This document shows, one piece after another, positions 349 through 61,124 of a DNA stretch of 64,000 nt. The position numbers were made by a program, and so were the translations under genes. The stretch is from Aphanothece sacrum FPU1 (GTDB taxonomy: Bacteria > Cyanobacteriota > Cyanobacteriia > Cyanobacteriales > Microcystaceae): positions 124,001 through 188,000 of the forward strand of contig NZ_BDQK01000014.1 of assembly GCF_003864295.1 (NCBI RefSeq). Reading direction: 5' to 3'. The notes below the pieces were generated by a model. The model saw only the letters and a list, made by a program, of their open reading frames with translations. It had not been told where the DNA came from and searched no databases. Numbering within the stretch: the stretch's first letter is position 1; every line of letters starts with the position of its first letter.

Positions 349-615
349 GATTCTACCGAATTTGTTATGTTAAATCAATGTCTACACTACAGACCTTATG
401 TCTGATACTATATGAACGAAGCCTCCCGAAGGGGGCTAGATTAAACCCATGTAGGTGGGTTTTGTCTTTAGACTAAAGTTTGATAATATATGAACGAAGC
501 CTTTCTTCGGAGGCTAAATTAAACCCACGTAGGTGGGTTTTGCCTTTATAGCTTAACCCTTCAGGGTTTAAGTCTATAATTTCTAATCGTCTTACATACT
601 AGATTCGATAGAACC
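349..615. repeat. Family-1 hairpin-rich inverted-repeat element, diverged copy with duplicated core
   Basis: This fills most of the gene-free gap 276-653. The left end GATTCTACCGAATTTGTTAT and the right end TCGATAGAACC resemble the ends of the family-1 element at 60,773. The core (TATATGAACGAAGCC, a GC-rich hairpin, TAAACCCA..GTAGGTGGGTTTTG) is present twice in tandem. The hairpin arms differ from the other copies but still pair: GCCTCC/GGGGGC here, against GTCCAC/GTGGAC elsewhere. It is probably a non-autonomous element and is not coding. Confidence 0.5.
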
Positions 616-6275: not shown

Positions 6276-6309
6276 TGATTAAATTACCCAATTAATCTAA
6301 ATTTTAATC

Positions 6310-6514
6310 GTTCTACCCGACAAGTTATGCTAAATGATCACAAATAATAGACTTTAACTCGTTCATAGTAGGGGTCAACGGCCGTTGACCCCTACCAAAC
6401 AAAGGTTACCTGCACAACCTATAATTTAGTCCGCGATCATCGGACTTCATTTTTATAGAATAAGGCTTTAGCCTTTTATTAATTATTAGTTTAGCATAGT
6501 TTGTCCGGTAGAAC
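6310..6514. repeat. Family-1 hairpin-rich inverted-repeat element (reverse orientation)
   Basis: The ends GTTCTACCCGACAAGTTATG and GCATAGTTTGTCCGGTAGAAC are inverted repeats shared with the elements at 7759 and 60773. The inner part reads as the reverse complement of those copies, including AAGGCTTTAGCCTTTTATTA. This copy carries a 28-bp palindrome (6368-6395) in place of the usual small hairpin near its left side. It occupies most of the 377-bp gap between the HicA/DUF1902 pair and the ABC ATPase; the rest (6515-6652) shows nothing I can name. Confidence 0.65.
6368..6395. repeat. 28-bp palindrome inside the family-1 element
   Basis: GTAGGGGTCAACGG followed by its exact complement CCGTTGACCCCTAC, a perfect palindrome. 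Four further 28-bp members of the same form exist at 19990, 38344, 50408 and 58473. Confidence 0.7.
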
Positions 6515-6652
6515 TAAAAGGATTCACCCACAGGTTACAGATTCTCTGAAAATCCCATTCTTGCTAAAATTTTTGCAACATTATGCCCTTTTTTCCTAAA
6601 AATAGGGAACAATAGTTGATGAGATAGTTTTCATTAAGGTTACGCAATAGTC

Positions 6653-7633: not shown

Positions 7634-7681
7634 GTCAATTGAGTTAAGTAAGTAGACAAAATTAATTACATAAAATTCGTA

Positions 7682-7743
7682 GTAGGGGCGGGTTTTTTAC
7701 AAATTTTTATGATCCTCACAAAAAAACTAGATAAACCCGCCCT
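7682..7743. repeat. Family-2 GGGCGGGTTT inverted-repeat element
   Basis: GTAGGGGCGGGTTTTTTAC at the left faces ATAAACCCGCCC at the right, enclosing TTATGATCCTCACAAAAAAACTAG. Related copies are at 12517, 21842-22170, 29551 and 60988, all with CACAAAAAA-like cores. Non-coding. Confidence 0.55.
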
Positions 7744-7758: not shown

Positions 7759-7946
7759 GGTTCTACCGGACAAATTATGCTAAATTAATAATGAATAAAA
7801 GGCTAAAGCCTTATCCTATAGAAACGAAGTCCGACGAGCGCGGACTAGATTATAGGTTGCGCAGGCGACCTTTGTTTGTATAGCTTAACTCTTTAGAGTT
7901 AAAGTCTATTATTTATGATAATTTAGCATCACTTGTGGAGTAGAAC
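7759..7946. repeat. Family-1 hairpin-rich inverted-repeat element
   Basis: It starts GGTTCTACCGGACAAATTAT and ends CTTGTGGAGTAGAAC. Inside are four small hairpins: AGGCT/AGCCT, GTCCG/CGGAC, AGGTTGC/GCGACCT and TAACTC/GAGTTA. Together with the family-2 element just upstream it fills the 418-bp gap 7634-8051 between the ABC ATPase and the end of gcvP; 7947-8051 shows only AACTG-type heptamer fragments. Confidence 0.65.
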
Positions 7947-12450: not shown

Positions 12451-12516
12451 AAACCAATCTCATAAACTTATGGAGTACGATCATCTGGACTGTCTTCTAG
12501 AATTCGTATTCTAATA

Positions 12517-12575
12517 AGGGCGGGTTTTTGACAAAATTGCATGATTCTAACAAATATGTTAAATCAACCCGCCTT
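12517..12575. repeat. Family-2 GGGCGGGTTT inverted-repeat element
   Basis: AAGGGCGGGTTTTTGACAAA faces TTAAATCAACCCGCC around GCATGATTCTAACAAATATG. It lies in the 261-bp gap 12451-12711 between the HU gene and the intron remnant, where nothing else is recognised except AGGGGAGCGCCGGAGCAAAG at about 12620. Confidence 0.5.
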
Positions 12576-15269: not shown

Positions 15270-15293
15270 AGGGTTCTACTCCGGTAGAACCCT
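15270..15293. terminator. Stem-loop made of fused family-1 ends
   Basis: AGGGTTCTAC, a 4-nt loop TCCG, then GTAGAACCCT followed by TTTG. It can end transcription of genes reading plus-ward. The arms are identical to the outer ends of family-1 repeats (GGTTCTAC...TCCGGTAGAACC), so it may be a collapsed element. Confidence 0.45.
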
Positions 15294-18210: not shown

Positions 18211-18275
18211 ACCCCTACTCTAAGTCTCTAATCTATTTATTTTGATACAAAAGTTAATAATTATCCCTTAAAACC

Positions 18276-19045
18276 ATTTTTAGTCAGAAACACGCCTGGG
18301 ATTATTATTTCCAACTCTATCATAAGTGCCTCAAATGACGCAACCTCGTGAGCAAATTTTTGTCGATTTTGCGCCCCCAAACCTCAATTAAGCATTTTTG
18401 AAATAGATTAGATATTTAAAATAGTTTTATATTTAAAGATTAAACTAGCTTATATTAAGCCATTCACCTCAGAGCCTAAATTATTTTTAGTCAGAAACAC
18501 GCCTGGGATTATCATTTACAATTCTATCATAAGTGCCTCAAATGACGCAATCTCGTTAGCAAATTTCTGTCAATTTTGCTCCCCAAAACCTCAATTAAGC
18601 ATTTTAGAGAGATATTAGATATTTAAAATAGTTTTATATTAAAGATTAAACTAGCTTATATTAAGCCATTCACCTCAGAGCCTAAATCATTTTTAGTCAG
18701 AAACACGCCTGGGATTATCATTTACAATTCTATCATAAGTGCCTCAAATGACGCAATCTCGTTAGCAAATTTCTGTCAATTTTGCTCCCCCAAACCTCAA
18801 TTAAGCATTTTTGAAATAGATTAGATATTTAAAATAGTTTTATATTAAAGATTAAACTAGCTTATATTAAGCCATTCACCTCAGAGCCTAAATCATTTTT
18901 AGTCAGAAACACGCCTGGGATTATCATTTACAATTCTATCATAAGTGCCTCAAATGTCGCAATCTCGTTAGCAAATTTTTGTCAATTTTGCTCTCCAAAA
19001 CCTCCATTGAGCATTTTAGAGAGATATTAGATATTTAAAATAGTT
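18276..19045. repeat. Tandem array of a 206-bp unit, four copies
   Basis: Units start at 18276, 18483, 18689 and 18895 with ATTTTTAGTCAGAAACACGC; spacings are 207, 206 and 206 bp, and the last unit is cut short at about 19045. Each contains CTATCATAAGTGCCTCAAAT, then CGCAAT/CCTCG, and TTAAACTAGCTTATATTAAG. Copies 2-4 are nearly identical and copy 1 is the most diverged. No reading frame is kept: a frame of about 20 codons in copy 1 is stopped in the others. The function is unknown. Confidence 0.85.
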
Positions 19046-19114
19046 ATAGAGTCAATATAATTAATATTTATGTAAAAAAACAAAACCCTATCTAGACAAG
19101 GATTAGAATAGAAG

Positions 19115-21660: not shown

Positions 21661-21841
21661 GTTTGAGATACTAACAAGATAAGGATTGACTTGTAAATCT
21701 TTGTTAAGAGTTACAGGGCTAAAGTTAACAATTTTTTTGTTTTCAAGTAAAATGAGAGTGTAACTATATTCGGAATTTTGCGATATTAAATATTCGTATC
21801 ATTGTAGCATAACTTTTTTGTGAGCATCATGTAATAGGGGA

Positions 21842-22170
21842 CGGGTTGATCTAACTTTTTTGTGAGTAAGCTAAGACGAATTTAAACTGTATATTGGCAC
21901 ATTAGGAAACAAACTATCAAACCATCACCCCATCACCCCATCACTCGAATAGGACTAATTTAGATGCGTAACAGCTTATCCTGTGGTGGGGGGCGGGTTG
22001 ATCTAACTTTTTTGTGAGTAAGCTAAGACGAATTTAAACTGTATATTGGCACATTAGGAAACAAACTATCAAACCATCACCCCACCACCCCATCACTCGA
22101 ATAAAACTAATTTAGATGCGTAACAGCTTATCCTGTGGTGGGGGGCGGGTTGATCTAATTTTTTTGTGAG
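21842..22170. repeat. Tandem 152-bp repeat with family-2 ends
   Basis: CGGGTTGATCTAACTTTTTT occurs at 21842 and 21994, and in slightly changed form at 22146, exactly 152 bp apart each time. The unit contains TTTAAACTGTATATTGGCAC, CATCACCCCATCAC and GATGCGTAACAGCTTATCCT. Two full copies are followed by a partial third. With the 16-bp array that follows, it makes up most of the 713-bp gap between guaA and the DUF1800 gene. Confidence 0.8.
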
Positions 22171-22186
22171 TATCATAACTGCTGTA

Positions 22187-22266
22187 AAAAACCCGCCCCT
22201 ACAAAAACCCGCCCCTACAAAAACCCGCCCCTACAAAAACCCGCCCCTACAAAAACCCGCCCCTAC
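22187..22266. repeat. Five perfect copies of a 16-bp unit
   Basis: AAAAACCCGCCCCTAC is repeated five times with no spacer. The unit is the right-hand end of family-2 elements. The lack of unique spacers rules out a CRISPR array. It probably grew by slippage at the end of the third 152-bp unit. Confidence 0.85.
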
Positions 22267-22373
22267 AAATTTTATGTAATTAATTGTGTCAATTAAAGGA
22301 TTTTATCTAGCTGCTACAATAGTTATAAATCATAATCTTTACTGATTACAACAGGTACGGGGGATCTGAACTG

Positions 22374-29414: not shown

Positions 29415-29550
29415 ACTCTATAGTTTAAAATAAGCGATTTAAATGCACAACAGCTTATGAGAAACCCTATATCTAATTGACTATATTTCTACTATTTTCT
29501 GTAGGAGCAAAACATATTTTTAAGCCCCTACGCCAACTCTTAAATCCTAT

Positions 29551-29613
29551 AAGGGCGGGTTTATGGAAAATCTGGGTAAACATCACAAAATTTAGGTAAA
29601 AACCCGCCCCTAC
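29551..29613. repeat. Family-2 GGGCGGGTTT element inside the phototaxis operon
   Basis: AAGGGCGGGTTTATGGAAAA faces GTAAAAACCCGCCCCTAC. It lies between the CheW gene and the first methyl-accepting protein gene, where its hairpin could lower transcription of the downstream genes; that effect is inference. Confidence 0.55.
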
Positions 29614-54191: not shown

Positions 54192-55436
54192 ATGTTAAGT
54201 CAAGAATCTACCTCAAACCGTATTACTCGAAGTCGTTACGATTATCATCTTTCTGAAGTTATTCGTCAACGTGCTTGGGTAGAGATTGATTTAGGGGCTT
54301 TAACCCACAATATTAAGCAAATTAAAGGGTTATTATCTCCTAAAACGGGTTTAATGGCTGTGGTAAAAGCGGACGCTTATGGCCATGGTGCTATTAAAGT
54401 AGCACAAACTGCTCTCAAAGCGGGGGCCAGTTGGTTGGCGATCGCTACTTTAGGAGAAGGAATTGAATTACGAGAGGCCGGAATTACAGCCCCCATCTTA
54501 ATTTTAGGGGCTATTAATACACCTCAAGAAATTGAAGCTATTGTCCATTGGCAGTTACAACCCACTTTATGTAATCCTCAACAAGCGTTAATTTTCTCGG
54601 AAACCCTTTCGGAATTAGGGGAAAATTTATCAGTTCATCTGAAATTAGATACGGGAATGTCTCGGTTAGGAACTCCTTGGGAACAAGCGACAGAATTTGT
54701 TAAATTAGTTCAACAATTACCCCATCTTAATATTGCTAGTATTTATTCTCATTTTGCCACTGCTGATGATCCTGATCCCACTATTATGAGATTACAACAT
54801 CAGCGTTTTGAAACCGCGATCGCTAACTTAAAAACTCAAGGAATTCAACCTCCTTATCTCCATTTAGCTAATTCAGCAGCAACTTTAACTGATCCTAGTT
54901 TACATTATGATTTAGTTCGAGTAGGATTAGCTATTTATGGACTCTATCCTTCTCCTCATTTACGTTCTGAAGTTTCTTTAAAATCAGTCTTACAAGTCAA
55001 AACAAAAATTACTCAAATTAAAACTATTCCTCCGGGAACAGGTGTTAGTTATGGACATAAATTTATTAGCGATAATTTGATGAAAATTGCTGTAGTTGGT
55101 ATCGGTTATGCGGATGGAGTACCCCGTAATTTATCTAACCGAATGGAAGTATTAATTAGGGGGCAACGGGTTCGTCAAATTGGGGCCATTACAATGGATC
55201 AATTGATGTTAGATGTGACTAATATTCGTCATTTACAAGTGGGAGAAGTTGTTACTATTATTGGTAAAGATGGAACGGAAGAAATTACGGCTGATGACTG
55301 GGCTAATAATTTAGGAACCATTTCTTGGGAAATTCTTTGTGGATTTAAACATCGACTTCCTAGAGTAAGTGTTCATTCTTTTAAGCCTAATTATAACAGT
55401 TCTCATTTAGATCCAATATTAACAATTGATAATTAA
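54192..55436 (+). CDS. alr: Alanine racemase
   Basis: A 414-residue fold-type III PLP enzyme that interconverts L- and D-alanine for peptidoglycan. The PLP lysine is K59 in VVKADAYGHGA. Other landmarks are HLKLDTGMSRLG, IYSHFATADD, HLANSAATL, YDLVRVGLAIYGLYPSP and the catalytic-Tyr region GTGVSYGHKFIS. An N-terminal extension of about 27 residues precedes the barrel. It follows the carboxypeptidase gene after 285 bp. That gap contains a GC-rich piece (GCGGTGCAGCCGCACTCGCG) of possible IS origin. Confidence 0.94.
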   Translation: MLSQESTSNRITRSRYDYHLSEVIRQRAWVEIDLGALTHNIKQIKGLLSPKTGLMAVVKADAYGHGAIKVAQTALKAGASWLAIATLGEGIELREAGITAPILILGAINTPQEIEAIVHWQLQPTLCNPQQALIFSETLSELGENLSVHLKLDTGMSRLGTPWEQATEFVKLVQQLPHLNIASIYSHFATADDPDPTIMRLQHQRFETAIANLKTQGIQPPYLHLANSAATLTDPSLHYDLVRVGLAIYGLYPSPHLRSEVSLKSVLQVKTKITQIKTIPPGTGVSYGHKFISDNLMKIAVVGIGYADGVPRNLSNRMEVLIRGQRVRQIGAITMDQLMLDVTNIRHLQVGEVVTIIGKDGTEEITADDWANNLGTISWEILCGFKHRLPRVSVHSFKPNYNSSHLDPILTIDN

Positions 55437-55591
55437 TACTTATAGACTTTAACTCTAAAGAGTTAAGCTATACAAACAAAGATTGCCTACGCAACCGAAT
55501 AATTGCTGTCGGCGAAGGCGGACTTCGTTTTTATAGAATAAGGCTTTAGCCTTTCATTAATTATTAGTTTAACAGAGTAAGTCAAGTAGAA
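55436..55591. repeat. Family-1 element, reverse orientation, degraded ends
   Basis: It reads as the reverse complement of the 7759 copy: GACTTTAACTCTAAAGAGTT, GGCGAAGGCGGACTTCG and AAGGCTTTAGCCTTTCATTA are recognisable. The left terminal repeat is missing and the right one is altered (AGTCAAGTAGAAG). Confidence 0.55.
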
Positions 55592-59410: not shown

Positions 59411-59569
59411 AATTAATAAAAGGCTAAAGCCTTATCCTATAAAAACTAAGTCCACCTTCGTGGACTGCCATTATAGGTTGCGTAGGCAACCTTTGTTTGT
59501 ATAGCTTAACTATGAACGAGTTAAGATCTATTATTTGTAATAATTTAGCATAAATTGTCCGGTAAAACC
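59411..59569. repeat. Family-1 element lacking its left end
   Basis: AATAAAAGGCTAAAGCCTTA through TTTAGCATAAATTGTCCGGT matches the copy at 60773 almost base for base from the first hairpin onward. The left terminal repeat (about 20 bp) has been replaced by the 59384-59410 palindrome. Confidence 0.65.
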
Positions 59570-60758: not shown

Positions 60759-60772
60759 TTTTAATAAAAATT

Positions 60773-60962
60773 GGTTCTACCGGACTTACTATGCTAAACT
60801 AACAATTTATAAAAGGCTAAAGCCTTATCCTATAAAAACGAAGTCCACCTTCGTGGACTGCCATTATAGGTTGCGTAGGCAACCTTTGTTTGTATAGCTT
60901 AACTATGAACGAGTTAAGGTCTATTATTTGTAATAATTTAGCATAACTTGTCCGGTAGAACC
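60773..60962. repeat. Family-1 element, best-preserved copy, with 8-bp target duplication
   Basis: 190 bp from GGTTCTACCGGACTTACTAT to CATAACTTGTCCGGTAGAAC plus C. The ends are inverted repeats. TAAAAATT stands directly on both outer sides, which looks like an 8-bp target-site duplication. The inner hairpins are AGGCT/AGCCT, GTCCAC/GTGGAC, AGGTTGC/GCAACCT and TTAACT..GAGTTAA. Confidence 0.75.
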
Positions 60963-60987
60963 TAAAAATTTATAGGGGAGGGTTTTT

Positions 60988-61088
60988 GTAGGGGCGGGTT
61001 TTTTAGAGGATTTATGATGCTCACAAAAAAGTTGAATAAACCCGCCCCTCTTTGATGATGCTCACAAAAAAGTTGAATAAACCCGCCC
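60988..61088. repeat. Family-2 element with duplicated right half
   Basis: GTAGGGGCGGGTTTTTTAGA opens the element. GATGCTCACAAAAAAGTTGA followed by ATAAACCCGCCC occurs twice, 41 bp apart (61016 and 61057). With the family-1 copy it fills the 366-bp gap 60759-61124. Confidence 0.65.
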
Positions 61089-61124
61089 TTTTTCCCTGAT
61101 GCTAGTGTCCACAAGTAAAAATGT

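Follow-up and report, generated by a model that had tools for sequence, protein, structure and literature searches.

How did a hairpin-rich element of about 190 bp come to lie at positions 60773-60962 of the stretch of Aphanothece sacrum FPU1 DNA analysed here, and which part of it is the unit that its relatives share? The stretch, called the window below, comprises 64,000 nucleotides (C14:124001-188000) of a 4.49-Mb draft genome in 20 contigs. We consider it very probable that the element is a MITE with ISL3-type ends, carrying as a passenger an exchangeable core of five stems. An ISL3 transposase, not found intact in the host, would have recognised both ends in trans, and the element would have entered AT-rich DNA between genes, duplicating 8 bp of the target. 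Its interior does not resemble that of the source insertion sequence; it is instead a palindromic core, of the layout H1, P(H2,H3), H4, which is widespread in cyanobacteria, joined there to at least two other end types and often without recognised ends. The ends would represent the machinery and the core the exchangeable passenger, the latter most likely kept as palindromic DNA by conversion among copies, by selection for the palindrome, or by both.

Copies of the element in Aphanothece sacrum

The intact reference copy (60773-60962, plus strand), placed by BLAST, by its sequence and by a covariance-model match, is bounded by two 26-bp terminal inverted repeats of ISL3 type. The left one (60773-60798, plus) is like the motif found on two ISL3 relics (L031 and L091), and the right one (60937-60962, minus) was recognised from the sequence. 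Each tip carries GGTTCTACCGGA, and the 8-bp sequence TAAAAATT flanks the element on each side (60765-60772 and 60963-60970, with no strand assigned; 8/8). Between the ends, on the plus strand, follow hairpin H1 (AAGGC-TAAA-GCCTT, 60813-60826), the 5' side of stem P (CTATAAAAACGA, 60830-60841), hairpins H2 (AGTCCAC-CTTC-GTGGACT, 60842-60859) and H3 (AGGTTGC-GTAG-GCAACCT, 60868-60885), the 3' side of stem P (TTGTTTGTATAG, 60886-60897) and hairpin H4 (CTTAACT..AGTTAAG, 60898-60918). H1 and H4 were called by folding, the remaining stems by folding and a cross-family alignment. When the interior of this copy is folded alone, it forms H1, a stem P that carries H2 and H3, and H4 (z -4.6), with CTATA.AAACGA of stem P pairing with TTGTTT.TATAG.

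Six related copies in the window had been claimed in an earlier note on this DNA, and a covariance model of the interior recovers all six. The core matches, ends excluded, lie at 467-575 (plus), 6370-6477 (minus), 7797-7907 (plus), 55444-55555 (minus), 59418-59529 (plus) and 60811-60922 (plus), so that two of the six copies stand in the opposite orientation. The 267-bp copy at 349-615 (plus) has both ends and a duplication of seven matching letters out of eight (TACAATAC/TAAAATAC), with about 78 bp of its core duplicated internally. Both ends are also present in the copy at 6309-6515 (minus), where H4 is partly replaced by another palindrome at 6368-6395, and in that at 7759-7946 (plus), the right end of which is degraded; comparison of the flanks of these two copies revealed no duplication (3/8 and 1/8, respectively). 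The copy at 55436-55591 (minus) has a single recognisable end, and that at 59411-59569 (plus) lacks the left end. Allowing up to two mismatches, the end motif GGTTCTACCGGA occurs 10 times in the window, against a mean of 2.66 and a largest value of 8 in 100 shuffles.

Other repeats were seen alongside these copies. The palindrome GTAGGGGTCAACGGCCGTTGACCCCTAC, or a close form, stands in place of part of H4 at 6368-6395 and in two copies elsewhere (L260 and L262), and gives the impression of a repeat inserted into another one. Near 15280-15291 two end tips are joined almost directly in the short palindrome GGTTCTACCGGAGTAGAACC, perhaps a MITE cut down to its outermost ends. Four tandem units spaced by about 206 bp occupy 18226-19058; identity to the reference copy is 76% in the first unit and 95-100% in the other three. 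Another dispersed palindromic family, GTAGGGGCGGGTTTTT .. AACCCGCCC, is found at 7680-7741, 12512-12573, 21826-22269, 29547-29608 and 60985-61092; it includes a 152-bp tandem stretch and a 16-bp tandem array (22187-22269), and members of it adjoin the 60773 and 7759 copies.

Beyond the window the element is abundant. A covariance model of the interior (R1) matches at least 150 distinct places in the 4.49-Mb genome, all scored candidates passing at E <= 5.8e-5; the figure is a lower bound that includes five of the six window copies, the 349 copy not being among them. The pattern GGTTCTACCGGAC, with up to two mismatches, occurs at 333 places genome-wide, versus 30 for the reversed control pattern. 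Placed in one orientation, 30 BLAST copies and two window copies align colinearly, most of them about 190 bp long and with inverted ends (alignment A1, from which the truncated matches L010, L012 and L016 were left out). The element is non-coding and intergenic: the midpoint falls in an open reading frame of at least 80 aa in 1 of 150 copies, against 1303 of 3000 nearby control positions.

Using a 22-letter motif with a limit of 15 matches, we found both ends on 67 of the 150 copies, one end on 60 and neither on 23 (1/299 in control windows), which leaves 83 copies without one or both ends. Many of the 23 end-less copies have kept inner end sequence and so look truncated or decayed, which weakens the case for independent, end-less cores in this genome. 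A single copy is the norm; at one locus (L277 351-462 and 469-587; G000:C4:39408-39644) two core copies lie in tandem on the same strand.

The 67 two-ended copies are informative regarding the mode of insertion. Perfect 8-bp duplications flank 13 of them, where shuffled pairing of the flanks predicts 0.25, and a further 4 have duplications matching at 7 of 8 positions (0.40 expected). Sorted by length, the exact direct repeats number 13 at 8 bp, 0 at 5-7 bp and 0 at 9-12 bp. Where 7 or 8 positions match (17 copies), the right-hand repeat has an A+T content of 91%. The 13 perfect repeats support the proposal that the 60773 copy arose through transposition with an 8-bp duplication.

Source of the ISL3-type ends

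Two places in the host genome match PF01610 (ISL3), both as fragments. One lies in a 326-bp relic (L031) with GGTTCTACAGGACTTATTATGCTAAA at one end and its partner at the other; this insertion sequence has lost internal parts and retains the C-terminus of PF01610. Another relic is decayed: it is 68% identical to the transposase of a relative over 151 aa and contains a stop, and its end, GGTTCTACAGGACAAATTATGCTAAA, is 2 of 26 letters off the reference end used in the scan. In the 20-contig host draft neither the PF01610 profile nor a protein search found an intact ISL3 gene; the latter led to a single copy interrupted by a stop, and relics are all that was found there. Ends of this kind also bound a 1009-bp element in a relative (G014), the transposase of which is split into two pieces, of 250 and 64 aa; the larger piece matches PF01610, PF14690 and PF13542. 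A clear 8-bp duplication was looked for at the 326-bp relic (3/8) and at the 1009-bp element (4/8) and was seen at neither. Exact 8-bp duplications at inverted ends starting with GG are found at 5 of the 12 ISL3 loci examined in the family, and one of these five (L087) encodes a 408-aa protein; the duplications are thus seen at intact relatives more distant than the 326-bp and 1009-bp elements, which have the closest ends.

Judged by their sequence, the ends are of ISL3 type, and we class the element as an ISL3-type MITE for which no intact partner is known. The view that it is non-autonomous and served by a transposase encoded elsewhere gains support from this ISL3-family source of the ends and from the perfect duplications at 13 of 67 two-ended copies. 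Current mobility of the MITE is a candidate property only, and unproven, since no intact ISL3 gene was found in the host draft.

A scan of the genome collection for the end motif returned three stretches, two of them in Prochloron and the third with a single end. The Prochloron stretches (L059 1738-1887 and L061 5974-6123) hold an element of about 150 bp with the same ISL3-type ends and an unrelated interior. Conversely, the relative with the 1009-bp element has these ends, and none of its 70 scored candidates matches the core. Because ends occur there without a core match, and in Prochloron around an unrelated inside, ends and core are separable.

The five-stem core and its other ends

The same five-stem layout, with diverged sequence, is found in other families of the order, where no ISL3 ends are seen by eye. 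Using a second covariance model (R2), we identified the core in 48 of 292 genomes sampled from the phylum, belonging to 25 of 116 genera (E <= 1e-4, best 12 candidates per genome). Within the host's family, 12 of 50 genomes have a match. One Nostocales genome (G169) has at least 150 core matches, both strands counted. In two further genomes (G171 and G290) core matches occur at regular spacing and look like tandem arrays.

Searched against the phage and plasmid collections, the window copy has no match. With a Nostocales copy as query, seven plasmid records were found, all cyanobacterial, and no phage match. BLAST detects parts of the core in plasmids of Nostoc, Anabaena, Dolichospermum, Brasilonema and Gloeocapsa, and a core copy in contig C5 of Gloeothece verrucosa (G018) sits at the place of plasmid NC_014533.1 (Gloeothece verrucosa PCC 7822). 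An empty-site comparison was made for one Nostocales copy, which has matches in 11 of 16 genomes of its genus, nine sites being compared. At this orthologous site (L311, L326-L333) G169 is filled, G326 is empty and the remaining seven genomes have different sequence; comparing the filled with the empty site reveals no clean duplication.

What bounds the core differs among lineages, with two unrelated end types besides that of ISL3. In Nostocales we find a second end type, B (GAGGATGTTTGAAAAGT): at 13 of 18 letters, at least one such end is present on 7 of 43 copies (23 of G169 and 20 others), versus 1 of 86 control windows. At a limit of 14, at least one type-B end is found on 5 of the 23 G169 copies and on 6 of the 20 copies from other genomes, leaving 18 and 14 copies, respectively, with no type-B end, and an ISL3 end on nearly none. 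Among seven two-ended copies of type B, four show a 3-bp duplication (TTA or TAA), which is absent from the other three. Two of the four are on plasmids, of Nostoc sp. UHCC 0926 and Anabaena cylindrica PCC 7122, and on these plasmids BLAST matches part of the core only. A third type, C, with the short motif CAGGGCTATTTCATTC and the ends CAGGGCTATTTCATTCTTTTGA, occurs in Gloeothece verrucosa, where three of seven copies are two-ended and one is one-ended. These elements measure 174 bp by the motif scan, or 176 bp when one more outer base is counted at each end, and their three two-ended copies have 9-bp duplications matching at 9/9, 9/9 and 8/9 positions. The type-C motif (17 of 21 letters) is also met in 8 of 383 other loci, of which 2 are core loci. 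As for ISL3 ends, at least one was found on 4 of 7 copies in G048, on 3 of 6 in G037 and, at the limit score, on 1 of 20 in other genomes, and none among the copies of Gloeothece verrucosa (0/7) and G169 (0/23). These ISL3 and type-B counts at limit 14 refer to 63 chosen copies (23 of G169 and 40 fetched), in a scan without a control of its own.

We read this as one core that has at least three kinds of ends, the two-ended copies seen of the new types being only three for C and seven for B. We lean slightly towards regarding the core as a selfish or useful unit in itself, which different cyanobacteria have independently joined to ends from three or more transposon types (duplications of 8, 3 and 9 bp), so that the inside of the MITE would have been conserved and the recognition ends swapped.

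In an alternative scenario, which we hold to be rather unlikely, H1 and H4 would be inverted GTAG-tagged REP hairpins, a RAYT tyrosine transposase would move the core, and the ISL3 ends would have been added later in the host lineage. GTAG-tagged REPs are indeed reported from cyanobacteria in passages of PMC3733652. CTAC follows H1 and GTAG precedes H4 in 20 of 23 G169 copies each (23 distinct places among the best loci, of at least 150 scored matches on both strands), and the one Nostocales insertion compared with its empty site lacks a clear duplication. The RAYT model matches 159 of 292 genomes, 101 of them above its cut-off; however, it also matches 6 of 14 control genomes and thus picks up RAYT relatives. 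In the host, the GTAG expected at the hairpin base of such repeats is not conserved: the tags are mostly CTAT (127/150) and ATAG (121/150), with GTAG on the right in 13 and CTAC on the left in 5 of 150 copies. No core match lies near any of the six RAYT genes examined, one of which is flanked instead by a different GTAG repeat. A RAYT gene of G271 (L349) has four GTAGGTTGGGTTGAG palindromes on one side, at 458, 708, 958 and 1285, and is likely a REP-transposase unit with them.

Pairing of the core, and comparison with known repeats

The reading that we prefer, a passenger core between exchangeable ends, raises the matter of how the core is kept. The arms of the hairpins had been noted to vary between copies yet stay paired, and this is confirmed in the host genome: of 150 copies, 114 have G-C at pair 6 of H2, 24 have A-T and 12 show another combination or a gap. 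In a cross-family alignment of 22 sequences (A6, like the 33-sequence A2 a chosen set), 89.7% of cells are paired, compared with 83.0 in shuffled and at most 45.9 in slid controls. Double-change cells number 53, against 19.3 when shuffled and at most 7 when slid, and the covariation score is 0.283 versus 0.155 shuffled. H2 and H3 are paired in about 97% of cells. The number of pairs with a double change (11; 47 of 500 shuffles as high) and that of further pair types (19; 500 of 500 as high) are not outstanding. An outer pairing proposed by RNAalifold on A6 was not adopted. Within the host family alone the outcome is mixed: its count of 5 double-change pairs is reached by 223 of 500 shuffles, that of 22 double-change cells by none of the 500, and we do not take covariation at this level as proof.

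The kinds of mismatch and the history of the paired states bear on the nature of the constraint. In the hairpins of the 150 host copies, G-U (68) and A-C (59) mismatches on the same strand are similarly frequent and show no clear RNA-strand bias, G-U being the mismatch expected in excess if one RNA strand were constrained. In the cross-family alignment, H2 and H3 are nearly free of wobble (298 Watson-Crick, 1 G-U and 2 A-C in 308 cells), so their changes run from Watson-Crick to Watson-Crick with no visible wobble intermediates. Stem P has more G-U than A-C in the host genome (58 vs 27, a single pair accounting for 27 of the G-U) and the reverse across families (15 vs 24). On parsimony trees of 115 of the 150 copies, computed without the hairpin's own columns, three paired states require at least 10, 18 and 15 changes. 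Such repeated switching could reflect conversion between paralogues or template switching. The hairpin arms lie within about 14-18 bp of each other, and a single conversion tract would therefore move both among paralogues. The suggestion of the earlier note that the folded form is selected as RNA or as single-stranded DNA is not demonstrated by these state switches and mismatch counts. Watson-Crick covariation without a clear strand bias favours a DNA palindrome and lends no support to a selected RNA; the core is most likely maintained as such a palindrome, with which the cross-family pairing agrees without proving a function, and selection on it is possible.

The same observations have to be weighed for two further explanations. 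Were the element a plain ISL3 MITE, its hairpins would be incidental, its likeness to other cyanobacterial repeats would go back to an old MITE that spread and whose ends were lost or swapped by decay and recombination, and nothing would maintain the core. The heavy decay in the host (83 of 150 copies without an end) agrees with this, as do the repeated switches among paralogues, which conversion leads one to expect, and the host-family count of double-change pairs, which is not above shuffles. We nevertheless judge it unlikely, given that the five-stem layout persists across families with diverged, paired arms, well above the slid controls, and that two other end types exist, each with a duplication length of its own (3 and 9 bp). 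That the element is a structured non-coding RNA under selection, spread through transposition, we consider very unlikely: the fold z-scores (whole copy -8.9 on one strand and -10.0 on the other, isolated core -4.6), the cross-family covariation and the G-U excess in the host stem P, about half of it in one pair, would fit, but inverted ends favour folding by themselves, the 64-kb window has no Rfam match at gathering score, many copies are matched by the covariance model on both strands, G-U and A-C are near parity in the host hairpins, and across families stem P is richer in A-C and H2/H3 contain a single G-U.

With regard to known repeats, the core shares several properties with the GTAG-tagged REPs, REP dimers and REPINs (PMC3733652; PMC3116915): it is dispersed, it has hairpins in inverted arrangement, its Nostocales copies carry GTAG/CTAC beside H4/H1, and in some genomes its matches occur at regular spacing. 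Unlike these, it is about 110-136 bp long and has a pair of additional hairpins carried by a shared stem, most host copies have lost the tag, and part of the copies are bounded by inverted ends and target duplications. In Anabaena sp. 90, 147 complete or partial type II MITEs are reported with no evident source insertion sequence, and three inverted-repeat sets are drawn in one group (PMC3542288, in part). Our guess, made from the description alone, is that they may include the Nostocales form of the core; that description, as far as the portion consulted goes, mentions no core common to different ends. The Nezha element, named in PMC10969869 and PMC3733652, is likewise a cyanobacterial MITE. 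Our literature search, which included short element sequences, met no core common to different ends in the partial texts it covered; this is weak evidence, work on very small mobile cyanobacterial repeats being outside its scope.

MITEs are normally defined by their ends, and the inside is treated as a decayed leftover. If the core is a unit in its own right, the present case would be the reverse of the textbook: the inside would be the conserved part and the ends would differ among lineages. Reuse of the core then becomes testable, be it that it aids transposition, renders intergenic insertions harmless or moves by itself, and a very abundant repeat of several cyanobacterial genomes would gain an identity. 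With the prokaryotic MITEs driven by insertion sequences, the window element shares its short length, its non-coding and intergenic character, its high copy number, ISL3-like inverted ends and an AT-rich 8-bp duplication. It departs from them in its interior, which is not a shortened transposase gene as in the 326-bp relic of its own genome, but a five-stem core common to elements with other ends.
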